From assembly GCA_945957395.1 (NCBI GenBank), contig CAMFKE010000003.1, positions 186,001-250,000 of the forward strand: a DNA stretch of 64,000 nucleotides, given 5' to 3'. The notes under the pieces are model-generated. The model saw only the letters and a program-made list of their open reading frames with translations. It had not been told where the DNA came from and made no database searches. Positions 11,580 through 32,581 of this stretch are shown here, piece by piece (within the stretch, counting starts at the first letter, position 1; each line of letters starts with the position of its first letter). This stretch comes from an uncultured Opitutia bacterium. GTDB lineage: Bacteria > Verrucomicrobiota > Verrucomicrobiia > Opitutales > UBA953. The translations under genes and the position numbers were made by a program.

Positions 11580-11973
11580 CGGCGTCGCCGGCGCCAAGCG
11601 AGGATCGGGCTTAGCGGGGTGTTTGCGAGTTCCGCAAGTCGCTGATGGCGAGTCGCTTGTGAGTTGCTATTTTTTTGTATGCGCCGCGTGGGCGCGATCC
11701 GTGTGCGAGGGGCCGGCGGTTTTTGCGTAAGTCGCCTTCGGCGGCTGCCGAGAGACGGGAGGATTATGCCCGGGGAAATTCCGGGGGGTGGGAATGTCCT
11801 GCCGTGCTATTTGGGGGATTTATCCCGGATGCCTCCAGTCTTTGTCGGGTGCTGGGGCGGGAGGGAGTTTGACAAGAGCTTCGCTTGACACCCTAGGGGC
11901 GAAGGCTACCCCCGACAGACCCCCTCTCCACCCCCCCATAGGAGGCGTCTTCGTGCGCCCAAAAACACCCCCC
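11580..11973. other. 394-base non-coding leader of the first autotransporter
   Basis: No credible gene is visible. The segment is G+C-rich with a T-run at about 11671-11677 and several short inverted repeats. Two TTGACA boxes lie near the 3' end. AGCTTCGC at about 11878-11885 is inverted as GCGAAGGCT at about 11900-11908, overlapping those boxes. The leader from the second box to the ATG is about 85 bases. Confidence 0.5.
11869..11912 (+). promoter_or_regulatory. Candidate promoter of the first autotransporter
   Basis: Perfect -35-type TTGACA boxes occur at 11869-11874 and 11885-11890, 89 bases or more before the ATG at 11974. No good -10 hexamer is visible at 16-18 bases (TACCCC or CCTAGG), so the call relies on the -35 boxes and position. 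Confidence 0.35.
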
Positions 11974-14900: not shown

Positions 14901-17900
14901 CATCGAGGTCATCGGCGGTCAACTGATCTTGGGCTCCGGCGTGCGCGACACGCTCACCCGCGTCGGCGCCACCCCGGACATCACTGTGAACGCCCCCGGG
15001 GTGCTCACTCTCGCCTACGGCACGGGGGGCGTCACCCTCACCGGACTGAAGGGCGACGGCACGCTGGAAAACTTCTCTTCGCATGTCACGCTGATCGGAG
15101 ACAATTCCGCGTTCACGGGCACTCTGCTCCTCACCGGCGGCATCGTCGATTCCGACACGCAGGCCGGACTGGGTGGCGTCACGCTGCTGGACTTCAACAG
15201 CGGCACGCTTCGACTGGGCTCGGCGAGTACGCTGAGCGTGGCCGTGCACGCCACCGACGGCACCGTCTCGTACCTGAACAGCAATGCGATCATCTCGTTT
15301 GCGGGGGCGGTTTTGACCGGCTCGGGCGACATCGTTAACAACGGCACGGGCCTGTTCGACCTTACCGGCGCGGACCTCACCGGGTTCACCGGCCGCCTGC
15401 TCGACGCCTACTCCCCCTACGACTTCGTGGGAGAAGCCCGCACCTTCGCCAAGCTGGAGGATCCTATCCCCGGCGTGGGCCGTGACTACTTCAACAGTTC
15501 GGCCACCGACGCCACGATGACGCTCAATCAGGATGAGGACTCGGTGGCCTCGGGGCAGATTCGCGACAACATTTCCCTGGTGAAAAACGGCGAGGGCACC
15601 CTCGTCCTGACCGGCGCCAACATCTACACCGGCACCACCACCGTGAACTTCGGCGTGGTCCGCGTGGGTGCCGGAGGCACCACCGGCTCCATCGGTTCCG
15701 GCGCCGTCACACTCAACGCCGGCGGCACGCTTTCCTTCGACCGCTCCGACGAGATCACCGTAAACAACGCGATTTCCGGCGACGGCACTCTGGAGCAGCG
15801 CGGCACCGGCACGGCCACCTTCGCCGGGCCTGTCGATGTCGGCGTGCTTTCCGTGGCTGCCGGATCCCGCGCCGCCCTCGCCTCCTCGGCCACGGTCGGC
15901 ACCCTGGCCGGCGCAGGCGAGGTGCGCCTGGACGGCGCGTCGATCCTCACGGTCGACGGCTCCGGCGTCTTCGACGGTTCGCTCACCGGCACCGGCTCGC
16001 TGCTGAAGACCGGATCCGGCACCTTCGTGCTCGCCGGCACGAGCACGCTGGCCACCCGGATTGAAATCGCCACGGGCACGCTGCAGGTCGGCAACGGAGG
16101 CACCTCCGGGGACGCCGGCACGGCGTCCATCGTGAACAACGGCACGCTGGCGGTGAACCGAGCCGACACGGTCGTGCTCGCCAACGCCATTTCCGGAACC
16201 GGTGCCGTTACCCAGTCGGGCGCCGGGCGCACGGTGCTCACCGGCGACAACACCTACCTGGGGCGCACCACCGTGGCGGCGGGCATCCTGCAGGTCGGCG
16301 ACGGCGGCACGACCGGCTCGCTGGGCTCCGGCGCAGTGGTCAACGACGCCACGCTCGTCTTCAATCGCGCCGACGATGTGAGCGCTTCCAACGCCATCAC
16401 GGGAACCGGTTCCTTGGTGAAGGAGGGCTCAGGCAAACTCACGCTCACCGGCCCCGTCGGCTACTCCGGCGACACCGTGGTGAACGCCGGCACGCTCGCG
16501 CTGGGCACGGCGACCCTCCCGGGCGGCGCCTACACCGTGGCTTCCGGCGCCCTGTTGTCCTTCAACGGCACGGGAGCGGCGACCTTGCAAAAGGGCGTCT
16601 CCGGCGCCGGCGATGTCGAGTTCAACGGCTCGGGCGCAACCACCACGCTGCAGGGCGACTCGGCGGCCCACACCGGGCGCATGGTCGTCTCCTCCGGCCA
16701 CACCCTCCGACTGGGCGTCGACGCCTCCTCGCCGGCCCCCGTGCTGGGTTCGAGCCTTCTGGAAATCAGCCAGGGCGCCACCTTGCTCGGCTCCGGTCGC
16801 CTTTCCGCCGGCTCCCTCGTGAACCGGGGCACGGTCTCGCCCGGCTTCTCGCCGGGACTTCTCGTGCTTGCCGGCGACTTCACCAACACCGGCACGCTCA
16901 ATATGGAAATCGCCGGCGCCGGCGGCGCAGGCGCCTCCACCGGTCACGACCAGATTCTCTTCGGCGGCACGGCCAACCTCGACGGCACGCTCAATATCGC
17001 CTTCACCAACGGCTTCGCGCCCGCTGACGGGTTCTCCGTCGTCCTGCTTGCCGACACGAACACCGCCGACGGCAAGTCCTCCTTCTCCGGCAACTTCGCC
17101 ACCGTCTCGGTGACCGGCGCGGTCGGCCGCATCGTGACCTCCTCTTCCGGCACCATCGCCTTCTTCGCCGGAGATTCCATCGCGCAGACTCCCGGACTGG
17201 TGCTCTCCGACGGCGCCCTCGCGTTCGCCGAGGCGCTCAGCCCCTCGCAAACGGCCGTGCATCCCGCACTCGCCGATTTCATCGCCATCACCGACCCCGC
17301 CGCCCGCGCGCGTGCCCTGACCAACTCCTCCCCCGTCGGTCTCGCCGCGCTCACCGCGCTGCCCGTCTCGCAGGCCTGTCGCGAGGCCGACGCCCTGCGC
17401 CAGCGCGTCGAGGCTCAGGCTCAGGCGGCCCGTACGCCCTTTGGCGATGGCGGCGCCAACTGGCTCGCCTATGCCGGTGGCAACGGCGGAATCTTCGACA
17501 ACGACGACGCCGTGGACGCGCCCACCTTCGACACGCGCAGTTTCGGCGGCTTCGCCGGGCTGGAGCGCCGCCTTGGCGACGGCTCGCTCTCCCTGGGGCT
17601 GCGTCTGGGCTACGACCGCGGCTCCGCCGACCTGCACGACGGCGCCGGCGACATCGATCAGGACCACGCCCGCGCCACCTTCTACGGCACGGCCCTTCTG
17701 GGCGACGCCGCCTATGTGACCGCCGGCCTGGGCATGGGCTACTCGTCCTACGAGACCAAGCGCCACACGGTCAACGGCACTCAAACCGCCTCGCCCACGG
17801 GCCTCGATGTGTCCGCCTCGGTGGACGCCGGCTATGTCCTGCACATCAACCGCGAGTGGACCTTCACCCCGCATGCCGGCGCCTCCGTGGTGCGGGCCAA

Positions 17901-18297
17901 TGTCAGCGCCTTCACCGAGTCCGGTTCGGACCTGGCGCTGTCCGTGGACGGCTATTCGCACACCGCGGCGCAAGTCCGCGTGGGCACGGCGCTGATGCGC
18001 GAATGGGCGGCATCGGGCTTCAAGCGCGACGCCATCCGCTTCGGCGTCGATGTGTCCTACGAGCACACGCTCTTCGGCGAGACGGTGGATATCCCCGCCG
18101 CGTTCGCCACCGTGCCGCAGGTCGGCTCGTTCACGAGCGAATCGGCCGCGCTGGTGCGCGACCGTCTGGTGGTCGGCCCGCAGCTGGAGTGGGTCATCGA
18201 CGGCGCCAACTCCATCTCCGCCGGCGCCCGCTACGAAATGGGCTTCGACGGCTCGAAGGGCTACCGCGGCGACCTCGCCTACGAGTACCGCTTCTAA
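11974..18297 (+). CDS. Giant autotransporter 1 (beta-strand-repeat passenger, C-terminal barrel)
   Basis: A 2107-residue type V secretion protein. The start at 11974 gives a signal peptide (MLPALRISLNRSFLAAAALG, cleavage at AHA-A). The passenger (about 30-1800) begins with LYWDGTDSTA and is a chain of autotransporter-associated beta-strand repeats with the recurring pattern GTGxLVKxGxGTLTLxGxNxYxG followed by VxxGTLxVGxGG, as in LVKTGAGTLTLSGANTFTG and GKTGAGKLTLTGANTYTGG. This predicts a long right-handed beta-helix. From about residue 1828 (NWLAYAGGNGGIF) to the terminal RF is an approximately 280-residue outer-membrane barrel, ending AYEYRF with the usual C-terminal Phe. A likely role is adhesion or surface coating. 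A strong terminator follows, separating it from autotransporter 2. Confidence 0.92.
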   Translation: MLPALRISLNRSFLAAAALGLASASAHAATLYWDGTDSTAAADGGAGTWNTSSTNWDTAATGGANATWNNATPDSAVFGGAAGTVTLGTGITAGGLAFTTTGYTVTGNTLTLGNATVGVDTGSGVSATIGSILAGTNTGLVKTGAGTLTLSGANTFTGNLAVNAGTVAVTSSGNLGAGTVSIASGATLNFTHTSGTQTVSRAISGTGNFVKDGAGVLVLNGVNTFSGSYTLTAGDLVFTGTSAEDGAPSLVINGGRFYLGGAFAGAVATMGNLSGAGGRISTAYEATTGTRTLSVNQTADATYSGILENGSSTRVLAFTKTGAATLTLAGGSSFTGPVNIQQGILKIGNSSALGAADYAVTKVVIGSGATLDVNGFADTKYGVTLAGGSLVNTGAATARNLIQTPNLLLTANSTVGGTGDFALIASGYGANSLDLAGFTLTKTGTNSIGLASTTATAGTIRVEGGAIEMGISNAGTGFTGAATTVNLAAAGATLTVTKASTLGALTAGAGTVLALNNTLTLGALNPNTTFGGDITGTGGLVLAQAGTFTFDRATDGTVAAVISGVGSVGKTGAGKLTLTGANTYTGGTSVTGGTLAVSGSGKAGAATGVLNVSGGGAFDLGGTSQTFGAVTVNNGSLLTGTLTGASFTLTDATVSSSLSGAGALVSSGNTVLSGTNNYTGTTSVTGGTLTLGAGGATGAISKDSAVLLSGGGTLAFNRSDDFEFSNVINGDDACDLRQSGTGVLTLAGDKSGFLGTTVVTAGTLRYKEAAARPTNFTGALDIQGGTLDANNLNLNTRLLTGSGTVAMGTGTLTLLGFGDSTFSGNIAGTGALVVDTGTTLRLAGDNTSTGATTVRGELWIGNGGSTGSLVTSAVTVEAGAFLVYDRSDSASVNTFGVSGAGTLASVGSGSVTHSGVVDGASVFQAGPGTLFVTNAANRISSVVVGDGRLELVAASVTGPISVSGGQGRIIGSIEAPIEVIGGQLILGSGVRDTLTRVGATPDITVNAPGVLTLAYGTGGVTLTGLKGDGTLENFSSHVTLIGDNSAFTGTLLLTGGIVDSDTQAGLGGVTLLDFNSGTLRLGSASTLSVAVHATDGTVSYLNSNAIISFAGAVLTGSGDIVNNGTGLFDLTGADLTGFTGRLLDAYSPYDFVGEARTFAKLEDPIPGVGRDYFNSSATDATMTLNQDEDSVASGQIRDNISLVKNGEGTLVLTGANIYTGTTTVNFGVVRVGAGGTTGSIGSGAVTLNAGGTLSFDRSDEITVNNAISGDGTLEQRGTGTATFAGPVDVGVLSVAAGSRAALASSATVGTLAGAGEVRLDGASILTVDGSGVFDGSLTGTGSLLKTGSGTFVLAGTSTLATRIEIATGTLQVGNGGTSGDAGTASIVNNGTLAVNRADTVVLANAISGTGAVTQSGAGRTVLTGDNTYLGRTTVAAGILQVGDGGTTGSLGSGAVVNDATLVFNRADDVSASNAITGTGSLVKEGSGKLTLTGPVGYSGDTVVNAGTLALGTATLPGGAYTVASGALLSFNGTGAATLQKGVSGAGDVEFNGSGATTTLQGDSAAHTGRMVVSSGHTLRLGVDASSPAPVLGSSLLEISQGATLLGSGRLSAGSLVNRGTVSPGFSPGLLVLAGDFTNTGTLNMEIAGAGGAGASTGHDQILFGGTANLDGTLNIAFTNGFAPADGFSVVLLADTNTADGKSSFSGNFATVSVTGAVGRIVTSSSGTIAFFAGDSIAQTPGLVLSDGALAFAEALSPSQTAVHPALADFIAITDPAARARALTNSSPVGLAALTALPVSQACREADALRQRVEAQAQAARTPFGDGGANWLAYAGGNGGIFDNDDAVDAPTFDTRSFGGFAGLERRLGDGSLSLGLRLGYDRGSADLHDGAGDIDQDHARATFYGTALLGDAAYVTAGLGMGYSSYETKRHTVNGTQTASPTGLDVSASVDAGYVLHINREWTFTPHAGASVVRANVSAFTESGSDLALSVDGYSHTAAQVRVGTALMREWAASGFKRDAIRFGVDVSYEHTLFGETVDIPAAFATVPQVGSFTSESAALVRDRLVVGPQLEWVIDGANSISAGARYEMGFDGSKGYRGDLAYEYRF

Positions 18298-18790: not shown

Positions 18791-21700
18791 ATGCGTTTTA
18801 AGAAAGCTTCCCTAGTCGCGGCCTCGGTCGCCCTGTCCATTTCCTCCCTCGGCGCCGCCACGGTCGATTGGAATGGTCGTCAGTCCGAGTACAGCGTCGT
18901 TTACGAGAATGGCGTTCCGATCGTTAAGGATGGATTAGGCAACGCCATCACCGCCGGCGTGAATACGGCCGTGGTCCCTGCCGGAGGCGGTTCAGGCGTG
19001 TGGGATGCCTTGTCGCAAAACTGGGTCAGCGGAGGTCGCGCGACCAGCTTTTCGGCCGCCGTGGGCAACTCGACCTCGGGCTCCACGATGAACTTTGGCG
19101 GCACCGGCGGCCTGGTTTTGGTCAGCTCGGGCCTCGATGTCGGCGGCACGCTCAATTTCAATGCCGGCGGCTACGAGCTTGTCGCCGCCGATTCGGCTCC
19201 GCTGCGTTTCGGCTCTATCAACGGCAATGTCGGCTCCAACAAGGTGCATAACGCTTTCGGCTCCGGCATTTCGGTGGCCAAAAACGCCACGGTGGAACTG
19301 GTGGCCGATATCTCGGGCACCATCGGTTCGCTGACGGGCTCCGGCAACTTCACCAAGTCCGGCGGGGGCCTTGTTCAGTTTAACGGTCACCAGGGTGACG
19401 GTGTTTACAAAAACGCCACCCGTCCGACCGCATCCTGGTGGGATGTCGGCAATGACGGCATCATCTTCATTGATTTTCTCGACGCGCTGACCGCGTCGTC
19501 ATCGCCCGGCGGGCGCCCGGCCTACCTGGAAGGCAATCCTGAGACACGCACGGGGGGCGTGGTGGGCGCGACGGGAACGCTCACCGGCGTTGTCACCGTG
19601 AACCAGGGTGTGTTGAAAGTCGGCGGCTACCTGAACCAGTGGAAGGAGTATTCGTCCTCGCTTCGTGAGTCGAAGTTCGATGTCGCCCATATGCAGGGCG
19701 CCGAGCGCGTGGTGCTCAACGGCACCGGGGAGCTCGCTTTCGCCAATTCGCCCCTGAATGTGGCTGACGATGTCGCAGGGGCTTTCGGCGGCTCCGGCGG
19801 GACGCTCGTGCGGCGTTACAATTTTGTGCAGAATCTGTCGGCGGGTCTTAACCACGATCAGTTCAATACGCGTCTGGATGCCGGCACGGATTCGAGCTAT
19901 CGCATCGTTCTGAATGTGGATGCGGCGGTCGACACCTACACCTACGCCAGGTGGACGGTCGACCCCCAGTACAACACGCTGGTCAAGGCGGCCGGTCTGT
20001 TGGTCGGCAATGTGCTGCCGGCGGGCACCGTGATGCCGCGCAGCACCCAGTTGCCCGCAGGGTTCGACATGAACAATGTCGACCTGACTTTCACCACGGG
20101 TATTCGCATCAAGAACCCCACGACCCTCACGGCGGCTTTCACGCTTCCGGCCGGCACCTATTTTGAGCGCGGCACTACGCTTTTGGTCAACAACATCAAC
20201 ACCACCGCGCTCACGGACGGGGGGATTTATATTCTGAATGCCGATATGCAGGGCACGACTTACCGCTCGAATGCGGAGCGCCAAAGCACCGTGGGCTCGT
20301 TGGGCATCCTGGCCGGCAAGGGCGACATCATCAAGACCGGCAAGGGCGAGCTGCGCGTCATCGGCGACGCCGAGCGCGGCACCGGCCGCTTCATGATCTC
20401 GGGCGGACGCGTGGTCCTGTCCAGCGTCACCGGCAACGCCCTGGCGAATGTCACCTCCGTGAATCTCGCCGGCACCGACTCCTTGCAGGGGCGCTCCACA
20501 CGCCCCGACTTCGTCGACCCGAGCAAGGCGGGCGACCCGACCGTCTGGCGCGAAGGCGTGGTGGCGGCGCCCGAGGCGGCCGATCTGGTGCTGCAGACCT
20601 CGCAGCGCTTGAATAACTTCCAAGCCGACTTCGCCTTCTCGTCGGCCGCCACCGACGCCGGAAGCACGGTGCTTTCCGCGATATCCAACGCCGCCAATGT
20701 CGACAATCGCGCCGAGGGGCTGATCGCCGGCACCGGCTTGGGCTCGCGTATCTTCCTCAATGGCAAAACCCTGACGCTTTATCAGGCGCGCGACGGCATC
20801 TACCGCGGCAGCATCTTCGACAAATACAACACCGACTCCAATAACTCGCTCACGCCCGATCTGGTCGAGGCGCCCACGGGAAGCATCGTCAAGATGGGCG
20901 CCGGCACCCTGGCCCTGCTTCTTGAGTACTCTCATTTCAAGGGCGTCAAAGTCGTCGAGGGCAGGCTTATCGCCAACGCCCAGGGCCTGGGCACGGGTGA
21001 AGTCGAGCTGGCGGGCGGCGAGCTGAGCATCATCCAGCTGAACACCGGCACGCTCCACGCCCTTCTTAAGGGTGCCGGTGTCATCACCATCGGCACGAAG
21101 GCCACCATCTCCAACGGCTCCGCCACCCCGCTTCAGATCAATTCCGGCAACGAGGTCGGCATTCTTCAGGTCGGGCGCGCCCAAACGCTCTTCTCCGGAG
21201 AGATCGCCGTAAAGGACGGCGTGGGCCTTCACTTCACCTCCGCCGCCAATGACGCCCTGCTCAATGTCACGGCCATTTCGCTCACCGGCGGCGACGCCTC
21301 GCGCGGCTCGACCCTGTCGCTCGGCGATTCCGTGCAGCATCTCTCCAACCTCTCGGGCGACGCCAATGCGCGCATCGACCTGGACCGCGGCACCCTGTTC
21401 TTGAAGCAGTCCGTCGATGGCGGTTTCGCAGGCTCTATCTCCGGGGCCGGCAGTCTGGTGAAGCAGGGCTCGGCCTCCTTCGTCATCGACGGCTCCAAAA
21501 CACAGTACTACGGCGCCACGGTCGTCCAATCCGGTCGGCTGCAGATTGTCGGAGAGAATGCGCTCACGCGCAGCTCCGGCTTGGTCCTGGGAGCCGGCGC
21601 CGTCTTCGACGGCGGCGACCGCAACCAGGGCGTGGGGGCGTTGTTTGGCGAGGCTGGCTCGATTGTTGAAATGGGCTCCGGCACGCTGACCGTCGGCCTT

Positions 21701-24700
21701 AACCCCTCGCGAGAAAGCCTTCTGATCAAGGAGCTCGCCGGCGGCAAGCCGCTCTCCTCCAACTACCTGACCACGCAGGGCACCGTCAATTTCAACGGCC
21801 TCAACTACGGGCCGCTGAACTTTGACACGACGTCCGCCGGAAACGCTCCGGCTTCGGACCCGCAAAACCTATTCCGCCTTAGCGACAGCCTTGCCGCCCC
21901 GCTCACGCTGACCGTCGACACCACCTTCTCCACCGGGGTCGGCCTGCCTCCCGGCGCCTTGCCTTCCTCTTTGCAGCTCTCGAAGGGCCTGTCGCTTTCC
22001 ACCTCCGTCACGCTCGGGGGCGACACAAATCTCGGCGGCGCCGCCACGACGCTGACCAACGGCGCCACGCTCTCCGGCGCGGCACTGTCCACCGCCATCA
22101 CCCTGAACAATGGCGGGCGCCTTACCTCGGCCGCATTCGGCTCCTCCTTCACGAACAATCGCGCCATTTTCCTGTCGTCCAGCCCGCTTCCCGCAGCGTG
22201 GACGACGCCCGGCGCCGTCACCCTGGGTTCCGGCACCTTGACGGCTGACTTCGTCACGCCCGCACCGGTGCGCGGCAATGCCTTCACGCTGAATCCCGTG
22301 GCGTTCGAGCTCCCGGCCGGCACGGTGCTTCAGGCGCCAATTTTTAACCAGAATGGGGATATCATCATACCCGCCGGGCCACTCGGAGCGAATACCACAA
22401 TCCCCGTCAATTCTCAGACTTGGGCAGCTTTTGACATCCCTGCGGGCGCGACGCTGAAGGAAGGCAGCATGCTGCCCTCCGGCGGCACCCTGGATGCCGG
22501 CGCCTTGTTGCCGGCCGGAACCATCCTGCCCGGCGGCTCCTCGCTCGCCGAAGGCTCTCTTATCACCGCCGGAACCCGCCTTCCCGAAGGCTCGATACTG
22601 GCAGCCGGCAACGCGCTGCCGGCAGGGACCCGACTGCCCGCCGGGTCCGTACTGGCGGCCGGCACGGTGATCGCCGCCAACGGCGTGCTGCCCGCCGGCA
22701 CGACGATCGCCCAAGGCACGACGCTCGCGGCGGGTGTGAACCTGCCTGCCGGCACGGTGCTCGGCGCCGACATCATGCTGCCCAACGGCTCGGTGCTGCT
22801 GTCGAACACCATCCTGCCCGCCGGCACCCAGTTGGCCGGCAATATGGCGGCCGCCACCCGTCGCTTCCTGCTGAATGTCGCCGGGTTCTCCCAGGCTAAT
22901 GCCGAGGCGCTGGCCTTCGCCGGCAGCATTCGCGGCAGCGGCGGCCTCACCAAGATCGGCGCCGACACGCTGATTCTGACCGGTGTGAACACTTACACGG
23001 GCGCGACCCAGGTCCAGGGGGGCTCGTTGATCGCCAACTACGACGCCATTTCCTCCACCTCCGGCGTGTCCGTCTCCTCCGGCGCGCTTTTCGGCCTCAA
23101 CATCGACCAGGGTCTCAAGGGCGCTTTTGACCGTCGCATCGCCGGCAACGGTGTCCTGCAGAAGCTGGGCGCCGGCGACCTGTCGCTCTCCGGCGACATC
23201 ACGGGTTTCACCGGTTCCACGCTCGTCTCCGCCGGTACGCTGCGCATGCAGCTGCACGAGGCGCTGGGCTCCATCGACATCGCCTCGGGCGCCACGCTCG
23301 CGGTGAATCAGATCAAAGATATCCGCATCGCCTCGTCGCTGAGCGGCGCCGGCAAGCTGGAGAAATCCGGCGCCGGCGTCCTGACGCTCTCCAACGCCGG
23401 CGGTTTCTCCGGCGAGGTCGTCGTCTCCGCGGGCACGGTGGCCATGAACACCCTGCCGGCCGGCAACATAACCATCGCCAAAAACGCCGCCTTTGAGGGC
23501 GCGCTGCCCGGCGCCGTCGACTATTCCGGCGTAGTTTCCGGTTCCGGCGCGCTGCGCCTCACCGGCGGTGCGACGACCTTCAGGTCGGGCAATGCCGGCT
23601 TTGACGGGACTCTGAGCGGCGTGGATACGCGGTTGGTCGCGGGTGTGGACGATGTTTTCTCCGCTGCGGAGCTTTCGTTGACCCGATCCGTCTTTGACCT
23701 GAACGGAACCGCACAGTCCTTCCGCGCCCTTTCCGGCGACCGGGATTCCTCCGTGGAACTCGCCGGTGGCTCCATTCACTTCAGTCCGGCCGCCTCGGTG
23801 GCGACCGAGTTCGCCGGTCAGCTTACCGGAGACGGCGCTTTGGTGAAGGATGGCGAAGGCAAGCTTTCGCTCACCTCCACCCAGTCCTCCTTCTGGACCG
23901 GATTCACCACGGTGAACGCCGGCGAGCTCGAGACCACCCCCGAGGCCCTCGGCGCCTCCGTCGTCCATCTTGCCGGCGGCGTGCTCGCGCTGCGCAACGC
24001 CGATGCGGCCGTCTCCAAGACCTATGCCAATCTCATCACCGGCGCCGGCGCGCTGGCCAAGACCGGCTCCGGCGAGATCGTCCTCACGGCCGGGGCGGCC
24101 GGTGTGACCGGCGGTGTGTTTGTGCGCGAAGGCCGCCTCACCACTGACGACGCCGGCACGGACGCCGTGTTCTCCACCGTGAACACCCTGCGCGGCTCGA
24201 CCTTCCAGGTGAACATGTCCGGCGACCGCGTGCACGATGCCTCTTCGGCCAACCGCGTGACCGGCACCGGCAATCTCGCCGTTTCCGGCACCTACACCCT
24301 CAAGCTCGTCGGCGTCCAGTCCTACTCGGGCGTCACCGAACTTCTTGACGGAGCCAGCCTGGATCTCACCGCAGTGAACACGGTGAACGGCCTCGCCGGC
24401 GACTCCACCTCCACTGTCCTCTTGCCCGCCGCGCTCACCGTGGTGCAGTCCGATTCCGGCGTGTTCGCCGGCTCCTTCAGCGGCGACGCCGCGTTGCGTG
24501 TGACCGGTTCCGGTCGCCTGGCCATCGCCGGCGACCTCTCCGGACTCGGCGCCGTGACTGTGGATGGCGGCAACCTGCAGGTCGGCACGACCTCCAAGGA
24601 CATCGCGCTGACCAACGGCGGCACCGTGTACATCGCGCCCGGCTCGTACACCGGCGTGGTCAGCGGCAACGGCGACATCGTCAAGACCGGCGGCGGCGTG

Positions 24701-26494
24701 CTCGACCTGTCCGCAGCCGTTAACTTCGTCAACTTCGGCAAGCTCGGTGTCGATGAGGGCGTGTTGATTGTGAATCCCGTCGCCTTGCCCTCCAACATCA
24801 CGGGCCTTCGCACCCAGGGGGCCGGCGAACTGCTCGTGCAGACCCAGTCCGACACTCTGGTGCAGGCCGGCTCCCCGCTCGCCTCCATCTCCGGCGACGG
24901 CGTGCTCGCCAAGACCGGCGCCGGCAAGCTCTCCCTCGGCACCAAGGCGGCGCCGGCAACTCTCGCGCACACCGGCGTGTTGCAGGTGCGCGAAGGCGTT
25001 CTGGGCGGCAACTTCAAGACGGCCGGCTCCATCGCCGTGCTCTCCGGCGCCACGCTCGCCCCGGGCAACTCCATCGGCACCGTCGTGGCCGCAGGCAACT
25101 TCGTCAACTCGGGCACGCTCGCCATCGAGCTCTCCGGCGTCACCTCCGACAAGGTGATCGTCTCCGGGGCAGCCACCCTCGGCGGCACGCTGGCGGTGTC
25201 CCAGTTCGGTCCGGACGGTCCCGTGCGCGGCACGCGTTACGCGTTCCTCACCGCCTCTTCCGTGACGGGCGACTTCGCCTCGGTGCAGAACAACCTGCCG
25301 GCCGCCGCCGGCGTGACCGGCATCTGGGTCGAGAAGACCGCCACCGGCGTGAACCTGGTGCCCGTGCAGAGCCTCTCCGCCGCCACCGGATTCACCCCGC
25401 ACGACGGCCTCGGCGGCCTGCTCGCCCAGCTCGATGCGCGCACCGCGCCGTCCACGACGACCGGATACATCACCGACACGCTCGGTCTGGCCCTGGTTCA
25501 GACGCCCAACGACTCGCTCGCCGCCGTGGTGAACACCCTTTCGCCCCTCGGCTTCGCCGCCGAGTACGCGATGGCGCAGGACGGTGAAAACCAGCGTCAG
25601 GCCCTGCTGCACGACCGCCTCGAACAGCGTCGCTACGACCGCGGCTCGCCCCTCTCCACCGAGGACGCCCCCTGGGAGGCGTTCGTCGTGGGCGGAGGCA
25701 CTTTCGTGACCAACGACGACGCCACGGACACCGCCACCTTCGACTACCGCAACTTCGGCGGCATGGTAGGACTCGACCGCAAGGCGGGCGACGACCTCCT
25801 GGTCGGCGCCGCCGTGGGCTATCAGACCGGCAAGGCCACGATCAAGGACAACGGGGGCAAGGTCGACATGGACCGCGCCGCCGGCACGCTCTTCCTGAGC
25901 ACCCAGCTCACCAAGCGCTGGTACCTCGACCTGGGCGCCACCGCCGGCGTGGGCCTCTATGAGTCCAGGCGAACCACCGTGCTGGGCGCCGCCGAAGGCG
26001 ACAACACCGGCTACTCCGCCGGCTTCAACGCCGAGACCGGCACGGTCGTTGTGCTCTCCAAGGAGCTGCACCTGACGCCCTACCTGTCCGCCGCCTACAC
26101 CCATCACGAGTTCGGCTCCATCTCCGAGACCGGCTCGGCTGCGGCGCTCAATGTCGACTCCTGGTCGCAGGATTCGCTGCGCGCCAAGGTCGGCACCGGG
26201 CTGAGCTGGTTCGTGCCGATGGAGTGGGTGAAGCTCAAGGTCGGCCTCGATGTCGCCTTCGCCCACGAGCTGCTCGACACCGACAGCGAACTGGACGCGC
26301 GCTTCGCCACGCCGGGTTCGCCGAAGTTCTCGACCACCGCCGCGGCGATTCCGCAGGACGCCATCTCGCTGACGCCCAACCTGGGCTTGCAGTTCGACGA
26401 GAGCACCTCGGCCACCGTGAGCTACACCTACGAAATGGGCCTGGACGCGCGTTCGTACCAGTCCGTGAACTTCGCGATCCGCAAGCGCTTCTAA
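18791..26494 (+). CDS. Giant autotransporter 2 with hexapeptide-repeat island
   Basis: A 2567-residue autotransporter. Signal peptide MRFKKASLVAASVALSISSL with cleavage near GAA-T; passenger of beta-strand repeats (for example LTKIGADTLILTGVNTYTGA); C-terminal barrel from about residue 2295 (WEAFVVGGGTFVTNDD) to the final KRF. It aligns end to end with autotransporter 3: shared landmarks are GYLNQW, the NSPLNV/NAPLNV region, the LDAGTDS/LDAGGAD region, EALAFAGSIRGSG/DALSFAGVITGSG and LEQRRYD. It carries two inserts absent from the paralogue: about 19925-20290 and about 21790-22860. The latter includes residues 1216-1347, an uninterrupted run of about 22 hexapeptides of the form [LI]-x-x-G-x-x (LPAGTR, LPAGSV and so on). 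That periodicity is expected for a left-handed beta-helix or another tightly wound solenoid. Likely surface-exposed; ligand unknown. Confidence 0.92.
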   Translation: MRFKKASLVAASVALSISSLGAATVDWNGRQSEYSVVYENGVPIVKDGLGNAITAGVNTAVVPAGGGSGVWDALSQNWVSGGRATSFSAAVGNSTSGSTMNFGGTGGLVLVSSGLDVGGTLNFNAGGYELVAADSAPLRFGSINGNVGSNKVHNAFGSGISVAKNATVELVADISGTIGSLTGSGNFTKSGGGLVQFNGHQGDGVYKNATRPTASWWDVGNDGIIFIDFLDALTASSSPGGRPAYLEGNPETRTGGVVGATGTLTGVVTVNQGVLKVGGYLNQWKEYSSSLRESKFDVAHMQGAERVVLNGTGELAFANSPLNVADDVAGAFGGSGGTLVRRYNFVQNLSAGLNHDQFNTRLDAGTDSSYRIVLNVDAAVDTYTYARWTVDPQYNTLVKAAGLLVGNVLPAGTVMPRSTQLPAGFDMNNVDLTFTTGIRIKNPTTLTAAFTLPAGTYFERGTTLLVNNINTTALTDGGIYILNADMQGTTYRSNAERQSTVGSLGILAGKGDIIKTGKGELRVIGDAERGTGRFMISGGRVVLSSVTGNALANVTSVNLAGTDSLQGRSTRPDFVDPSKAGDPTVWREGVVAAPEAADLVLQTSQRLNNFQADFAFSSAATDAGSTVLSAISNAANVDNRAEGLIAGTGLGSRIFLNGKTLTLYQARDGIYRGSIFDKYNTDSNNSLTPDLVEAPTGSIVKMGAGTLALLLEYSHFKGVKVVEGRLIANAQGLGTGEVELAGGELSIIQLNTGTLHALLKGAGVITIGTKATISNGSATPLQINSGNEVGILQVGRAQTLFSGEIAVKDGVGLHFTSAANDALLNVTAISLTGGDASRGSTLSLGDSVQHLSNLSGDANARIDLDRGTLFLKQSVDGGFAGSISGAGSLVKQGSASFVIDGSKTQYYGATVVQSGRLQIVGENALTRSSGLVLGAGAVFDGGDRNQGVGALFGEAGSIVEMGSGTLTVGLNPSRESLLIKELAGGKPLSSNYLTTQGTVNFNGLNYGPLNFDTTSAGNAPASDPQNLFRLSDSLAAPLTLTVDTTFSTGVGLPPGALPSSLQLSKGLSLSTSVTLGGDTNLGGAATTLTNGATLSGAALSTAITLNNGGRLTSAAFGSSFTNNRAIFLSSSPLPAAWTTPGAVTLGSGTLTADFVTPAPVRGNAFTLNPVAFELPAGTVLQAPIFNQNGDIIIPAGPLGANTTIPVNSQTWAAFDIPAGATLKEGSMLPSGGTLDAGALLPAGTILPGGSSLAEGSLITAGTRLPEGSILAAGNALPAGTRLPAGSVLAAGTVIAANGVLPAGTTIAQGTTLAAGVNLPAGTVLGADIMLPNGSVLLSNTILPAGTQLAGNMAAATRRFLLNVAGFSQANAEALAFAGSIRGSGGLTKIGADTLILTGVNTYTGATQVQGGSLIANYDAISSTSGVSVSSGALFGLNIDQGLKGAFDRRIAGNGVLQKLGAGDLSLSGDITGFTGSTLVSAGTLRMQLHEALGSIDIASGATLAVNQIKDIRIASSLSGAGKLEKSGAGVLTLSNAGGFSGEVVVSAGTVAMNTLPAGNITIAKNAAFEGALPGAVDYSGVVSGSGALRLTGGATTFRSGNAGFDGTLSGVDTRLVAGVDDVFSAAELSLTRSVFDLNGTAQSFRALSGDRDSSVELAGGSIHFSPAASVATEFAGQLTGDGALVKDGEGKLSLTSTQSSFWTGFTTVNAGELETTPEALGASVVHLAGGVLALRNADAAVSKTYANLITGAGALAKTGSGEIVLTAGAAGVTGGVFVREGRLTTDDAGTDAVFSTVNTLRGSTFQVNMSGDRVHDASSANRVTGTGNLAVSGTYTLKLVGVQSYSGVTELLDGASLDLTAVNTVNGLAGDSTSTVLLPAALTVVQSDSGVFAGSFSGDAALRVTGSGRLAIAGDLSGLGAVTVDGGNLQVGTTSKDIALTNGGTVYIAPGSYTGVVSGNGDIVKTGGGVLDLSAAVNFVNFGKLGVDEGVLIVNPVALPSNITGLRTQGAGELLVQTQSDTLVQAGSPLASISGDGVLAKTGAGKLSLGTKAAPATLAHTGVLQVREGVLGGNFKTAGSIAVLSGATLAPGNSIGTVVAAGNFVNSGTLAIELSGVTSDKVIVSGAATLGGTLAVSQFGPDGPVRGTRYAFLTASSVTGDFASVQNNLPAAAGVTGIWVEKTATGVNLVPVQSLSAATGFTPHDGLGGLLAQLDARTAPSTTTGYITDTLGLALVQTPNDSLAAVVNTLSPLGFAAEYAMAQDGENQRQALLHDRLEQRRYDRGSPLSTEDAPWEAFVVGGGTFVTNDDATDTATFDYRNFGGMVGLDRKAGDDLLVGAAVGYQTGKATIKDNGGKVDMDRAAGTLFLSTQLTKRWYLDLGATAGVGLYESRRTTVLGAAEGDNTGYSAGFNAETGTVVVLSKELHLTPYLSAAYTHHEFGSISETGSAAALNVDSWSQDSLRAKVGTGLSWFVPMEWVKLKVGLDVAFAHELLDTDSELDARFATPGSPKFSTTAAAIPQDAISLTPNLGLQFDESTSATVSYTYEMGLDARSYQSVNFAIRKRF
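22436..22831 (+). repeat. 18-bp-period hexapeptide repeat array inside autotransporter 2
   Basis: Twenty-two consecutive six-residue units, beginning IPAGAT-LKEGSM-LPSGGT and ending LPNGSV-LLSNTI-LPAGTQ, with Leu/Ile at position 1 in all units and Gly at position 4 in nearly all. The phase never slips. Codons differ between units, so the array is under protein-level constraint and is not a recent DNA expansion. A more degenerate run with the same flavour precedes it at about 21935-22140 (LSKGLS, LSTSVT, LGGDTN, LTNGAT). Confidence 0.9.
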
Positions 26495-26503
26495 AGCCGA
26501 GGT

Positions 26504-26569
26504 GGAAGATTGAAGGTTGAAGACTCAAGCGGCTCATGCGCCGCCGGTCCCTTCAACCTTCAATCTTCC
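26504..26569. repeat. 19-bp perfect inverted repeat in the AT2-AT3 spacer
   Basis: GGAAGATTGAAGGTTGAAG at 26504-26522 and its exact complement at 26551-26569 surround a 28-base loop that itself contains GCGGC/GCCGC. The pairing nearly extends further (GTG/CAC with a small bulge). A TTTTT run follows at about 26574, so it may act as a terminator or attenuator between the two autotransporter genes. The arms reiterate TTGAAG words. Confidence 0.85.
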
Positions 26570-26644
26570 CCACTTTTTCCTCCCCCCGTCTCCCTTCCTC
26601 GGACACCCCGCCGAAATCAGAACACCGAACACTGTTCCGCCTCC

Positions 26645-29600
26645 ATGCGCCTGAAAAAACTCTCTCTCGTCGCCGCCGCCTCCTTCGGCTTCGCCGCCGT
26701 CGCCGCGGCCAACACCACGGCTGTGGCCGCGGGTGGTTCGCTGACCGTTTCGCTCCCGACCGGCAACTATGACTTGGGCGCGAAATCGACGCTTACCATC
26801 GACGCGCTCACCAGCTCGACCTATTCGGGCCGCATCACCGGATCGGGCGATGTCGTCAAGACCGGCTCGGGAATACTGCAGATTAATTCCTATGCCGACA
26901 TCAGTTATTACAACGGAGTTTCGTTCCTTGGCTCCGGCGGTCCCACCGCTGATGATTTCTTGCTGAACGCCACGACCGGATCTTTGCGTGTCAAGCAGGG
27001 TGGGGTGATGGTTTCGGGTTATTTGAATCAGTGGGCGGACTTCGGCATGCTGGTCAGTGACGTTCATCGTACCGGGCTTCCCGCCTACAAGGGGGACGAT
27101 CAGTACCTTGGCTACTCCTCCATTGTGCTCGAAGGCAATTCCAGCCTCTCCGTACGCAATGCGCCTTTGAATGTTTCGGCGGTCGAGGAGTCCTATGACG
27201 GATTCATCAACAAGCCCGTTCTCCCCGGCGCCCGTCGCGTGGTCTACCTTCGCAACCTCAAGGCCGGCGAGGGGCACAATCAGGCTCTTACGCAGCTGGA
27301 TGCCGGGGGAGCCGACACTTCCGTGATCGTCCACATCACTTCGGGGGAAACCGGTTCCATCGGCAATCTTGTTGGCTCCGGCAAGTTCGTGAAGACCGGC
27401 GCCGGCTCGTTCTCCATCATCAATGAAAGCCGCTTTACCGGCGATGTGCTGGTCGGCGGCGGCGTGCTTGTGCTGGACGGTGAATCGGGGGGCACTCTCG
27501 CATCGGCGCGCACAGTGAATATCGGCCTGGGCGGCGTCGGCGCCGCAGTGGCCTCCAAGCGATACACCAATGACTATATGCGCGTTGACGAATGGCGCCC
27601 CGGCTATGTCGCCGGCGCCGGTGACGCCGTGCTGCGAGTCAATGGCGTGCAGACCATCAATAACTTCCAGGCTCTGTTTGGCACCAACGACAAGGACTAC
27701 CTCGCGGGCGACGGTCGGCTCGAACCCTTTGGTGTGACCACCGGGACTGGCTCCACCATCAGCTTCAGGGATGCCGACTCGGTGTTGGTGCTCAATCAGC
27801 AAATGGACGCCTACTACACCGGCGCCATCACCGGAGGCGGTTCCATTGTCAAACAGGGTAATGGAACCCTTGCGCTTCATGGTGCCACGGGGTCCTACAA
27901 AAACCTTACGGTGCGCAACGGCGCGCTGATTTCCAATGTCCAGATGCTGGGCGGGGGGAGTCTTTTCCTTGGTGACGCCCAAACTGACGCCGCGGGCGTG
28001 GCTCCGTCCCTTGTTCTGATCCAGAATGACGCGGGTACCTTGCGCGCCAAAATCTATGGAAACTCCGACGGTGAGCTGGTCTTCAAGACCAAGGCGTCCA
28101 TCACCAATTCCATCGGCGCCAGCGTCGGCATCGGCAACGGCCAGATTGGATCGGTTGATATTTTTGCGGCCCAATCTGATTTCCGCGGTTCCATCGTCGC
28201 CGAGGACGGGCTGACCCTGGCCTTCAACGCGGCCAGCAGCGATGCCTTTGCGAATGCCAAGGCGGTCATTCTCAGGTCCGGTGCGAACGGCGAGGAGACC
28301 ACGCTCACCTTCAATGACACGGTGCAGACGCTGAGAAACTTCCAGGGCGACGCCGGCACGCGCATCAGCCTCGGCCGTGGCACGGCCACCTTGGTCCAGT
28401 CCGGGGATTTGGATTACGCCGGCAAAATCACCGGCATCGGCAACCTGATCAAGGATGGTGCCGGCACACTGGTGCTCTCCGGACGCGACTCCATTGATAA
28501 CGCCGTCACCACATACGGCGGCGCCACCGTGGTGCGCGGCGGCAAGCTGGCGCTCGCTTCGCGCAATCAGCTTCCCAACACCTCCGCGCTGGTGCTCACC
28601 ACCGGCGGCACGATCGTGGTCAACGGTGACCAGCATTTCGGCGCCCTGTTTGGCCAGGCCGGCACCGTCCTCAATATGGGCGCCGGAAATCTGACCATCG
28701 GTGTGACCGATGATCGTCTGGCTCAGATCCGGCAGGAGGCGGCATCGCTGCCCCAAAGCGTGCCTGTGCCCAACGCAGGCTACTATCTGCAGACGCAAGA
28801 GGGGGTCACCGGCCTTCCCGACAGCATTTCCGTGGCCAACACCAAGGCGTTCCTTCAGTCCGCAGGCCTTTCGGCGGCCGAGGCGGATGCTCTGTCCTTT
28901 GCCGGTGTGATCACCGGCTCCGGAGATCTCGTCAAAATCGGTGCCGAGCGTCTGACGCTTACGGGAGCCAACACTTACACGGGCGCCACGCGCGTGCTCG
29001 GCGGCACGCTTCAGGTGACCGAGGGCTCCATCGCCCTCAGTTCCTCCATTGTCGTGGAGAAGGGCGCCTCTCTGGCGGTGGATGTCGCCGAAACGAAAAC
29101 CGGCTTCTTCGACATGCCCGTTTCCGGAGCAGGTTCGTTCTCCAAGACGGGCGCCGGAACCCTTACGCTCGGCAAGGAGACCTCGCTGACCGGCGGCTTC
29201 CGCGTTGATCAGGGTACGCTGGTCCTGGCCATGAAGGGCGGCTTTGGCGGCGACCTCTATGTCGCCTCCGGCGCCACCCTCAACTATTCCTCCGAAAATG
29301 ACGCCACGCTCGCCGGCGTGTTCTCCGGTGCCGGCACCTTCACCAAGGAGGGTGCGTCCAAGCTTGTGCTCTCGTCGTCCTTCGGCGTGGCCGGCTTCAC
29401 CGGTGATCTGGTGGTCAACGGCGGTTCGCTCGTCTCCTCCGGTCTCGCGCCCGCCGATATCGCCATCGCCGCCGGCGCCACCTACCGCGCCGACCTGGCC
29501 TCGGCAGCCGCCTACGCCAAGGACCTCTCCGGCGCCGGTACGCTCGCCGTGGACGGCGCATCGCTGAACCTGCTGACGACCGACAAGCCTGGCCCCGCCT

Positions 29601-32581
29601 CGGGCCTGTTCACAGGCACGCTCGCCGCCTCTAACACGAGCCTTATCGCCGGCACCGATCATGTGCTCAGCGACGGCGTCGCCTCCGCCGGCAGCCTCTT
29701 GCTGACCAATGCTCGCTTCCAACAGGGGGCGACGAATCAGCGCCTCGCCGGACTCTCCGGCGACGCCTTCTCTGTCGTGTCGCTCGGCGGCGGCACGCTC
29801 ACGGTCGCGCCGGCCTCCGACCGCACCGTCTATGAAGGCACCTTGGAAGGCTCCGGCACGCTGGTGAAGACCGGCGCCGGCACGCTCACCCTGGCCTCCT
29901 TCGCCAATACCGGCTGGACCGGCACCACGCTCGTCGAGGGCGGCACGCTCGAAGCCACCCCGATGGCTTTGGGCGCCTCCGCCGTGAGCGTCGTCTCCGG
30001 CGGCAAGCTGGCGCTTCGCAATCCCGATGCGGTGAACGCCATGGTGTACGCCAACGCCATCACTGGCGACGGTGTCATCGGCAAGACCGGCGCCGGCGTG
30101 GTCAGCCTGACCAACGGTTCCGGCGGGTTCACCGGCACGCTCGACATCGCCGAGGGCGAGCTGCGCGCCGCCACGGGCAACATCGGCGGGCAGATCTTCC
30201 CGAAGACCACCGTGGCCAAGGGCGCCACCTACGCGGTGGTGCTCGGCTCCGACACGACCCACGACGCCACCGCCGACTACAAGGTCTCGGGTGCCGGCTC
30301 GCTGGCGGTCGAGGGCGCCTACACGCTCAAGCTGGTCAACGGTCAGAGCTACACGGGCAACACCATCCTGCGCTCAGGCGCCACGCTCGACCTCACCGAC
30401 GCCACCTTCTCCGGCACCCTGTTGGGTCTTGCGGGTCAGGCCGGCACGGTCGTCAGGTCAACCCCCTCGCTTGTCATCGACCAGAACACCGACGGCGTGT
30501 TCGCGGGCAAGTTCGAGTCGGTCACCGACCTCACCGTGAAGGGCGCGGGCAAGTTCGCCTACTCCAAGCTCACCAATGTCGGCACCGTCGCGATCGACGG
30601 CGGCAACCTCGCCGTCGACGCCTCGCTCACCAAGGCGGTCGTGCTCTCCAACGGCGGCACGCTGTACTTCGACACCACCGGCTCGCGGCAGGTGTACCAA
30701 GGTGCCGTGACCGGCTCCGGCGACATGGTCAAGACCGGCACCGGTGACCTGGTGTTGACCGACACCGCCGCCTTCGCCAACGCCGGCGCCATCGGCGTGG
30801 ACCAGGGCAAGCTCACCATCACCACCGCCGGACTGGGTGCGAACATCACGGGACTCAAGACCTCCGGCACCGGCACGCTCGCGCTGGATGTCGCCGCAGG
30901 TTCCACCGATGCGTCGACCTTCACGGGGTCCGCCTCCCGCGCCATCACCGGACCGGGCGCTCTGACCAAGACCGGCTCGGGCAAGCTCGTGCTCGGCACC
31001 GCCGCCAACCCCTACGCCGTCGGCACCACCGGCACGCTCACCGTCGCCCAAGGCACGCTGGGCGGCACCTTCACCACCTCCGGCGCCCTTGTCGTGGGCA
31101 AGGACGGCACGCTCGCCCCGGGTAATTCGCCCGGCACGGTCACGGTGAACGGGGCATTCTCCTCCTTCGGCTCGCTCGCCTTGGAGTTGAACGCCACGGC
31201 CTCCGACCTCATCGCCGTCAACGGTTTCGCCACCCTCGCCAACGGCACGAAGTTCCTCGTCACCCACGATCCCGCCGCCGCCGCTCCGGTTCGCGGCCAA
31301 GGGTACACGGTGCTGACGGCCACCTCCGGCGTCCTGGCCTCCGAAGGCGACTTCACGCTCGATCCGGCTTCGCGCCGGGTGATCATCGTGACCCCGCTGC
31401 GTAACGGCGACGCCGCCGGCTCCCTTTACGGGAAAGGCGCGGCCAACGCCATCGTGGTGTACGATGTGATGCCGCTGGCCGAGACCCCGGGGTACTCCGC
31501 TCACGAGGGGCTTTCCGGAATGCTTGGCGTCCTCGATTCCATCTCGGTTGACCAGTATGGCATGCCCGCCAATGCGGTGGCGGCGCAACTCGCCTTCATC
31601 CCGACTGCCGACCTTGCTCGCACCGTCAACGCCCTCTCTCCTCTGGGCTTCGGCTCCCTCTACGCCATGGAGCGCGACACCGCCCTGCGCCACGAGGACC
31701 GTATTCGCGAACGCCTGGAGCAGCGCCGCTACGACCAGGGTGGCTACAGCCCGTATGAGTGGGAGGCCTTCGTCGTCGGTGGAGCCGCCATGGCGGACAA
31801 CGAGGTCAAGACGGACACCCCGACCTTCGACACCCGTACCTATGGCGGCCTTGTCGGCCTCGATAAGAAGCTGGATTCCGGAATGGTCGTGGGCGGCGCC
31901 GCCGGCTATGACAACGGCTCGGCCACCCTGCATCAAAGCGCCGGCAAGGTGGACATGAACCGCGTGCGCGGCACCGCCTTCCTGTCCACGAGGCTCACCA
32001 ACCGCTGGTTCCTCGATGCCGGGCTCTCGGGCGGCTTCGGTGACTTCGCCACCAAGCGCAACACCCTCACCGGGCGCGTCACGGGCTCGACCACGGGCGT
32101 GGATGTCGGCGCGAATGTGTTCACGGGCACGATCGTCACGCTGAACGAGTCGCTTCACCTGACGCCCTTCGCCGGCGTCTCCTACGCCCACCACGAGTTC
32201 CAGGGCTTCACCGAAAAGGGCGGCAACGGCGCCGCGTTCAAGGTGGATTCGTGGAGCAACGACTCCCTGCGCGCCTCCGTCGGCACCGGCCTCGGCTGGT
32301 GGATCCCCTCGGGCGACTGGAAGTGGAAGCTCGGCGTGGACGCCTCGTTCAACCACGAGCTGCTCGACACCGAGTCCGATATCGACGCTCGCTTCGCCGC
32401 CGGCGGCTCCAAGTTCTCCACCACGGCGGCCGCCCTCCCGGCGGACTCCCTCTCGGTCGGCCCGAACGCGGCGCTGCACTTCGACGAGAACAACGCCATC
32501 TCCGGCGGCGTGAACTTCGAATACGGCTTCGACGGTCGCACCTACACCGGATTCAACGTGGCCTTCCGTCGCCGCTTCTGA
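26645..32581 (+). CDS. Giant autotransporter 3 (paralogue of autotransporter 2)
   Basis: A 1978-residue autotransporter. The ATG at 26645 gives a signal peptide (MRLKKLSLVAAASFGFAAVA, cleavage near AAA-N) that matches autotransporter 2's MRFKKASLVAAS; 45 in-frame upstream residues are spacer sequence. The passenger shows the same repeats (LVKIGAERLTLTGANTYTGA, LVKTGAGTLTLASFANTGWTG) and the ...TLAPGNSPGTVTVNG turn that commonly closes such beta-helices. The barrel starts near residue 1706 (WEAFVVGGAAMADNE) and ends FRRRF. It lacks the LPAGT-containing inserts of its neighbour. Tandem duplication followed by passenger divergence is the simplest history. Confidence 0.92.
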   Translation: MRLKKLSLVAAASFGFAAVAAANTTAVAAGGSLTVSLPTGNYDLGAKSTLTIDALTSSTYSGRITGSGDVVKTGSGILQINSYADISYYNGVSFLGSGGPTADDFLLNATTGSLRVKQGGVMVSGYLNQWADFGMLVSDVHRTGLPAYKGDDQYLGYSSIVLEGNSSLSVRNAPLNVSAVEESYDGFINKPVLPGARRVVYLRNLKAGEGHNQALTQLDAGGADTSVIVHITSGETGSIGNLVGSGKFVKTGAGSFSIINESRFTGDVLVGGGVLVLDGESGGTLASARTVNIGLGGVGAAVASKRYTNDYMRVDEWRPGYVAGAGDAVLRVNGVQTINNFQALFGTNDKDYLAGDGRLEPFGVTTGTGSTISFRDADSVLVLNQQMDAYYTGAITGGGSIVKQGNGTLALHGATGSYKNLTVRNGALISNVQMLGGGSLFLGDAQTDAAGVAPSLVLIQNDAGTLRAKIYGNSDGELVFKTKASITNSIGASVGIGNGQIGSVDIFAAQSDFRGSIVAEDGLTLAFNAASSDAFANAKAVILRSGANGEETTLTFNDTVQTLRNFQGDAGTRISLGRGTATLVQSGDLDYAGKITGIGNLIKDGAGTLVLSGRDSIDNAVTTYGGATVVRGGKLALASRNQLPNTSALVLTTGGTIVVNGDQHFGALFGQAGTVLNMGAGNLTIGVTDDRLAQIRQEAASLPQSVPVPNAGYYLQTQEGVTGLPDSISVANTKAFLQSAGLSAAEADALSFAGVITGSGDLVKIGAERLTLTGANTYTGATRVLGGTLQVTEGSIALSSSIVVEKGASLAVDVAETKTGFFDMPVSGAGSFSKTGAGTLTLGKETSLTGGFRVDQGTLVLAMKGGFGGDLYVASGATLNYSSENDATLAGVFSGAGTFTKEGASKLVLSSSFGVAGFTGDLVVNGGSLVSSGLAPADIAIAAGATYRADLASAAAYAKDLSGAGTLAVDGASLNLLTTDKPGPASGLFTGTLAASNTSLIAGTDHVLSDGVASAGSLLLTNARFQQGATNQRLAGLSGDAFSVVSLGGGTLTVAPASDRTVYEGTLEGSGTLVKTGAGTLTLASFANTGWTGTTLVEGGTLEATPMALGASAVSVVSGGKLALRNPDAVNAMVYANAITGDGVIGKTGAGVVSLTNGSGGFTGTLDIAEGELRAATGNIGGQIFPKTTVAKGATYAVVLGSDTTHDATADYKVSGAGSLAVEGAYTLKLVNGQSYTGNTILRSGATLDLTDATFSGTLLGLAGQAGTVVRSTPSLVIDQNTDGVFAGKFESVTDLTVKGAGKFAYSKLTNVGTVAIDGGNLAVDASLTKAVVLSNGGTLYFDTTGSRQVYQGAVTGSGDMVKTGTGDLVLTDTAAFANAGAIGVDQGKLTITTAGLGANITGLKTSGTGTLALDVAAGSTDASTFTGSASRAITGPGALTKTGSGKLVLGTAANPYAVGTTGTLTVAQGTLGGTFTTSGALVVGKDGTLAPGNSPGTVTVNGAFSSFGSLALELNATASDLIAVNGFATLANGTKFLVTHDPAAAAPVRGQGYTVLTATSGVLASEGDFTLDPASRRVIIVTPLRNGDAAGSLYGKGAANAIVVYDVMPLAETPGYSAHEGLSGMLGVLDSISVDQYGMPANAVAAQLAFIPTADLARTVNALSPLGFGSLYAMERDTALRHEDRIRERLEQRRYDQGGYSPYEWEAFVVGGAAMADNEVKTDTPTFDTRTYGGLVGLDKKLDSGMVVGGAAGYDNGSATLHQSAGKVDMNRVRGTAFLSTRLTNRWFLDAGLSGGFGDFATKRNTLTGRVTGSTTGVDVGANVFTGTIVTLNESLHLTPFAGVSYAHHEFQGFTEKGGNGAAFKVDSWSNDSLRASVGTGLGWWIPSGDWKWKLGVDASFNHELLDTESDIDARFAAGGSKFSTTAAALPADSLSVGPNAALHFDENNAISGGVNFEYGFDGRTYTGFNVAFRRRF

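Follow-up and report, generated by a model that had tools for sequence, protein, structure and literature searches.

Twenty-two in-phase hexads lie within an autotransporter

Can a hexapeptide solenoid be housed in the passenger of an autotransporter and, if so, which hand would it take? On the usual view, the passenger of an autotransporter folds into a single right-handed helix, with a C-terminal autochaperone to start it off. The case described here lies in a 64,000-nucleotide stretch of DNA (the window, meaning the whole stretch analysed). An open frame with an ATG at 18791 encodes P0001, a type Va autotransporter of 2567 amino acids (18791-26494, + strand), recognised by its Pfam and NCBIfam matches. 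P0001 has the C-terminal autotransporter beta-barrel of type Va, at residues 2299-2546 (25685-26428, + strand; Pfam Autotransporter beta-domain, PF03797, E 2.8e-44, 152 bits). PATR scores 65 bits, and the passenger matches the NCBIfam beta strand repeat TIGR02601. The Pfam scan of P0001 found neither the TPS secretion domain nor DUF3739, which belong to type Vb and the filamentous haemagglutinin (FHA) family. Note that MRFKKASLVAASVALSISSLGAA of P0001, as judged by eye, resembles an N-terminal signal peptide.

The array occupies residues 1216-1347, numbered from the ATG at 18791 (22436-22831, + strand; located by phase fit and Pfam Hexapep). It consists of 22 consecutive hexads with neither gaps nor shifts, running IPAGAT, LKEGSM, LPSGGT, LDAGAL, LPAGTI and so on to LPAGTQ. 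Position 1 is L or I in every one of the 22 units. Position 4 is G in 19, the exceptions being N, D and N in units 14, 19 and 21. About 22 phase-perfect hexapeptide repeats had been claimed here in an earlier note, made from the letters of the window. This is borne out: the fit to hydrophobic, G or N, and small residues at positions 1, 4 and 5 is 0.95, compared with a best value of 0.60 in 20,000 shuffles. Identity is 0.37-0.47 at lags of 6, 12, 18, 24 and 30 residues, and at most 0.12 at every other lag. Past the insert, the beta-strand-repeat passenger resumes with the best PATR repeat (residues 1386-1413; 22946-23029, + strand; best PF12951 stretch).

The units vary in their codons. Paired three-unit blocks average 54% DNA identity, with a best value of 76%. 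Hence, this is no fresh slippage array: the pattern was maintained in the protein as the underlying DNA changed. GC3 is 0.864 in the array and 0.85 in the gene, so composition shows no sign of recent foreign origin. A match to a 192-residue antisense open frame over the array was set aside as an echo of the array's composition.

The match to hexapeptide proteins depends on residue layout

Scanned alone, the segment matches Pfam Hexapep (PF00132) with 30.7 bits on 22436-22849, where the cut-off is 27. In the whole-protein scan of P0001, Hexapep scores just 13.5 bits. By its residues, then, the segment has the tandem [LIV]-x-x-x-[STAV]-x hexads, in phase over several coils and above the curated score, that mark PF00132. 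The match was lost when the segment was reversed or fully shuffled, and swapping G and T (positions 4 and 5) left no Pfam match at all. Shuffling within columns, so that the motif was kept, retained Hexapep at 32.7 bits. Moving G to position 2 left 25.9 bits, because that layout is another hexapeptide motif. Since the layout-breaking controls fail, the match rests on the arrangement of residues and not on composition. In the same Pfam scan of the segment, the low-complexity family Drf_FH1 matched weakly and no right-handed beta-helix family matched.

Sequences of known structure give a similar picture. With phmmer, gamma-carbonic anhydrases and a pilin glycosylation protein are among the best PDB matches, and two copper-transporting ATPases stand lower in the list. 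A profile was also built from six LPAGT arrays, namely the window array plus similar ones. Its best 26 PDB rows hold hexapeptide-type proteins, including the pilin glycosylation protein 4m98, gamma-carbonic anhydrases, tetrahydrodipicolinate N-acetyltransferase and LpxD-type acyltransferases. Proteins of this type, such as gamma-carbonic anhydrases and LpxD-type acyltransferases, are left-handed beta-helices. The profile comparison proposed earlier thus finds a resemblance to left-handed hexapeptide proteins.

The array is no hexapeptide enzyme. His, Cys, Phe, Trp and Tyr are absent, and the 132 residues include only 5 acidic and 3 basic ones. No catalytic or metal-binding histidine is present in the array and, with Cys and aromatics also missing, there is no transferase or carbonic-anhydrase site. 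The suggestion that the repeats differ from known acyltransferase hexapeptides is not borne out by the profile: the segment alone passes the Hexapep cut-off, though it has no His at all.

The coil appears three-sided and its hand is probably left

At the variable positions 2, 3, 5 and 6, similarity at a lag of three units is 0.368, compared with 0.260 expected (p 0.004, units shuffled among themselves). Among seven lags tested, only this one clearly exceeds expectation. Three units are 18 residues, so the excess fits a three-sided coil. In both AlphaFold2 models, DSSP gives an EE/EE/E strand pattern recurring every 18 residues. The array has the three hexads per coil, or 18-residue periodicity, of PF00132.

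The models speak less clearly about hand. Mean pLDDT is 46.5 for model 1 (55-67 over most of the array) and 56.2 for model 2. Both low-confidence models form a three-sided coil that looks right-handed. Structure prediction, as called for earlier, thus yields the 18-residue coil, with low confidence and an apparent right hand. Foldseek, run with both, gave no match at E <= 0.001, left-handed proteins included, and lists that were mostly right-handed helices. We do not count this null result as evidence on fold, because the models are weak. With VIA, both models match right-handed helices, among them pectate lyases, Ag43, TibA and pentapeptide-repeat proteins, for the most part at an rmsd near 3-5 A. 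The top Z scores with model 2 (11.2 and 10.5) belong to gamma-carbonic anhydrases, which are left-handed, but at an rmsd of 12 A. On this model, a high Z at so large an rmsd may reflect a near mirror image, with equal internal distances and the opposite hand.

Such models could mean that the array is instead a highly regular right-handed beta-helix, with three sides and 18 residues per coil, coaxial with the passenger, so that handedness does not change. Passengers known as beta-helical are right-handed, their chirality is said to be all but unpredictable in advance, and triangular coils are recognised in type V passengers (PMC5767081). However, AlphaFold2 is reported to lean towards right-handed beta-solenoids when a sequence is repetitive or of low pLDDT (PMC12775518), and to invent beta-solenoids for repeats (PMC11795689). 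Hence, the low-confidence models are unreliable on handedness. The profiles, moreover, match left-handed hexapeptide proteins and no right-handed Pfam family. We consider a right-handed coil unlikely and, on sequence grounds, favour a left-handed one. Of the original proposal of a left-handed solenoid, the exact hexapeptide period and the left-handed profile likeness stand; the hand itself we infer, and both models look the other way.

Alternatively, the array could be a flexible, low-complexity linker rich in Pro, Ala, Gly and Thr, expanded by slippage and lacking any fixed coil. The high content of Ala, Gly and Pro, the Drf_FH1 match, the low pLDDT and the presence of similar arrays in linker-like settings would all suit such a linker. 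It sits poorly with a phase kept over 132 residues, and with L or I at all first positions, despite divergent codons. The 18-residue superperiod, and a Hexapep match that depends on layout, also speak against it. We regard a linker of this sort as improbable, and return to a three-sided solenoid that would probably be left-handed.

The array is inserted at a variable site

Window positions 11788-32581 hold three giant autotransporter genes in tandem, all on the + strand. The first (11788-18297, + strand; PATR 142.7 bits) has no hexad array; its beta-barrel match in the genome is at G000:C3:203473-204234. P0001 follows, and then its tandem paralogue, an open frame of 2023 amino acids that is 42% identical to P0001 by pairwise alignment (26510-32581, + strand). 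The position-specific hexad score is nowhere above threshold in the first and last of these proteins. In P0001 it exceeds the shuffle maximum at two places only, the array and a second stretch described below. Autotransporter barrels number seven in the whole genome. Very long open frames run antisense to the autotransporter genes (for example, window 21869-26266, - strand); high GC3 and repeats probably account for them.

Two insertions separate P0001 from its paralogue, which has neither. Site A (residues ~984-1356; 21740-22858, + strand), placed by pairwise alignment and by anchors in relatives, contains the array and a degenerate lead-in. Site B (residues ~393-495; 19967-20275, + strand), placed by alignment and anchors, contains the second hexad-like stretch (residues ~394-466; 385-469 by the hexad score). 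Here the hexad score peaks at 16.6 and 13.9, compared with a shuffle maximum of 11.6, and the period is 6.0 (p 0.0005). Among the family members compared, the site B stretch was found only in P0001.

Relatives of the tandem pair occur in 27 of the 79 genomes of the family. We compared 20 stretches from relatives in which flanking anchors were located. Where both anchors of site B were found, little or nothing lies between them, a few to about thirty residues. Site A varies far more. In relatives from the sister genus (g2) it can be as long as about 670 residues, a large share of which belongs to a different repeat, of ~46 amino acids, with a consensus like GLxVGQxVTGTGIPAGTxITxI...LSxNLTAAASG. 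Carriers are L140 (at site A, for example), L142, L143, L145, L146 and L147, and no Pfam family matches the repeat above cut-off. In other genera, site A holds shorter, non-repetitive linkers. None of the family relatives compared has a hexad array there.

Judged against the paralogue and relatives, the array is an insertion. This agrees with the earlier view of an insert in a beta-strand-repeat passenger: PATR and TIGR02601 match elsewhere in P0001, and paralogue and relatives lack the array. The expectation that homologues would keep the period fails, in that the site holds no hexad array in family relatives.

A similar hexad module occurs in FHA-family giants

Searches of plasmids with tblastn matched FHA-family giants of Klebsiella quasipneumoniae and Variovorax, together with an unannotated Cupriavidus frame. 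All three have a common module with LPAGT-type hexads, covered by no Pfam family. The Klebsiella quasipneumoniae protein, WP_135726824.1, has both the TPS domain and DUF3739 according to Pfam. We built an HMM from six such modules, all of them six-periodic. It matches the array at E 1.3e-9. When the array is masked, it still matches residues 1171-1207 (E 1.5e-4) and, at site B, residues 394-466 (E 0.0046). Reversed or shuffled decoys score E 1.3 or worse, and family relatives 0.38 or worse. The HMM gives 0.004 for two ordinary hexapeptide acyltransferases and 0.0003 for a nucleotidyltransferase-like protein that itself has LPAGS hexads.

The masked match at residues 1171-1207 (22301-22411, + strand) is the signature LPAGTVLQAPIFNQNGDIIIPAGPL, just before the array. 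The pattern LPAGTVL...[DN]xxG[ND]...AG is common to FHA modules and to residues 1174-1198 of P0001. Note that some unit-shuffled arrays score as well against the FHA modules as the native array does. Hence, it is the lead-in and site B that carry the case for common descent. The array module is best read as the same kind of sequence as the FHA-family hexad module, to go by these profiles; the likeness may also be convergent. In the order to which one Burkholderiales-type genome belongs, 2 of 250 genomes match the FHA module.

These comparisons also bear on whether the array expanded in place, or degenerated, from the sister-genus GIPAGTxI module of ~46 amino acids, and is no FHA-type hexapeptide solenoid; the two share a site, an IPAGT core and tolerance of large length changes, but P0001 holds nothing that a model of the 46-residue module recognises at E <= 10, nor does the FHA-module profile recognise the 46-residue array (E 0.2). 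Such an origin is very improbable.

Hexads occur in further giants of the same phylum. Four of the 78 genomes of one family (f41), from three genera, encode giant proteins with beta-helix-like repeats and hexad-rich inserts. We take these proteins to be DUF4347-like and Pmp-like, recognised from sequence and not by Pfam. The search for the repeat in other proteins, which had been recommended, thus finds it in FHA-family and f41 giants, and the array is not a singular case.

When 84,980 species were scanned for the pattern, 84 stretches came up, and most of these are unrelated LPAGT or IPAGS runs. In Frankia, LPAGT/LPDGT hexad arrays of differing lengths occur in an apparent membrane protein (L041, L064, L075 and L080), several at contig ends; this suggests a variable repeat number. 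A flagellar-hook-like protein from Mariprofundaceae (L090) carries the insert TIPAGTTLPEGTMIAPGTTLSAA. LPAGT-type hexads in settings as unrelated as these indicate that convergence is easy. In a sugar nucleotidyltransferase-like protein from a Clostridia bacterium (L059), ordinary hexapeptide coils run directly into LPAGSRLPEGTVL, so LPAGx hexads can adjoin typical left-handed-helix repeats. A small protein on Skermanella mucosa plasmid pSM-1 (L179, 4773-5351; WP_202683170.1) is nearly all hexads (LPSGMFLPGGTTLPAGMSLPPGACLPAGTTLAAG...) after a signal-peptide-like start.

Other matches were set aside. Most matches of the phylum tblastn search (L008, L009, L012, L015, L017, L018, L023 and L005/L014) proved to be simple repeats of other kinds, or arrays read in a different frame, and two more (L016 and L024) resemble ordinary hexapeptide acyltransferases. 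The viral contigs searched held nothing relevant. An Aeromonas phage match was antisense to an annotated gene.

A candidate spacer and display module

The explanation we favour, with slightly better than even confidence, is that the array is a rigid, non-enzymatic, three-sided hexapeptide solenoid, likely left-handed, which sits as a spacer or display module at a variable point of a passenger that is otherwise a right-handed beta-helix. The 22 hexads would form a beta-solenoid of about 7.3 coils, at 18 residues per coil, and be roughly 3.5 nm long. Its hand would most likely be left, as in hexapeptide-transferase domains. The site would be a tolerant, fast-changing one; in related species it carries other repeat modules or short linkers. 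A rigid spacer with a smooth, weakly charged display surface would probably alter how long the adhesin is and which face it presents. This role is the likeliest in view of where the array is inserted, how lengths differ there, and how smooth and weakly charged its composition is. The comparisons show the repeat, the insertion, the variability of the site and the profile matches to left-handed hexapeptide proteins and to the FHA module; the fold, hand and role we infer, along with the module's origin by acquisition or by local expansion. Related stretches in other giant adhesins make the array look like a reusable module and no one-off.

What would this mean? More tentatively, at somewhat under even chances, we propose two things together. 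First, a left-handed beta-helix would lie within the right-handed passenger of a monomeric autotransporter, the chain reversing hand twice during vectorial extracellular folding. Second, the hexad module would be an interchangeable part that circulates, in different phyla, among giant adhesins of type Va, type Vb and other kinds. Handedness decides how surprising the array is. If the coil is left-handed, a solenoid of mixed hand offers a clean test of passenger folding past a reversal. The un-named module common to FHA-family exoproteins gives a handle on part-swapping among giant adhesins, and the variable site shows that a single place within a conserved tandem gene pair can hold repeats of differing types. 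The array is a real and unusual repeat and an insertion, best read as a hexapeptide solenoid module of a kind that FHA-family exoproteins also have. Among the papers searched, none combined a left-handed beta-helix and hexapeptides with an autotransporter passenger, or with an adhesin.

Comparison with known systems

Left-handed hexapeptide proteins (PF00132; LpxA/LpxD, DapH, PglD and gamma-carbonic anhydrases) share with the array hydrophobic-x-x-G-[ST]-x hexads in phase, the 18-residue superperiod and, for the segment scanned alone, a profile score that exceeds the Pfam cut-off. Unlike them, the array is an extracellular autotransporter insert without catalytic His or enzyme domain, has a Pro-rich position 2, and keeps perfect phase over 22 units. 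We know of no hexad array in solved autotransporters of the Ag43/AIDA/TibA type. These self-associating autotransporters share with P0001 a C-terminal PF03797-type barrel and a beta-helical passenger (PMC5767081). The f41 giants resemble P0001 in having runs such as LADGSTLAQGTTIQAGTTL within a giant protein of beta-helix-like repeats. They differ in that the hexads are interrupted, the stretches read hold no autotransporter barrel and profile similarity is weak. FHA-family exoproteins (for example, WP_135726824.1) are giant surface proteins that share with P0001 the LPAGT-type hexads, the signature and the six-residue period. However, their module is about 100-165 amino acids long with few perfect hexads, compared with 22 in the array, and they use type Vb (TPS) secretion, whereas P0001 uses type Va.
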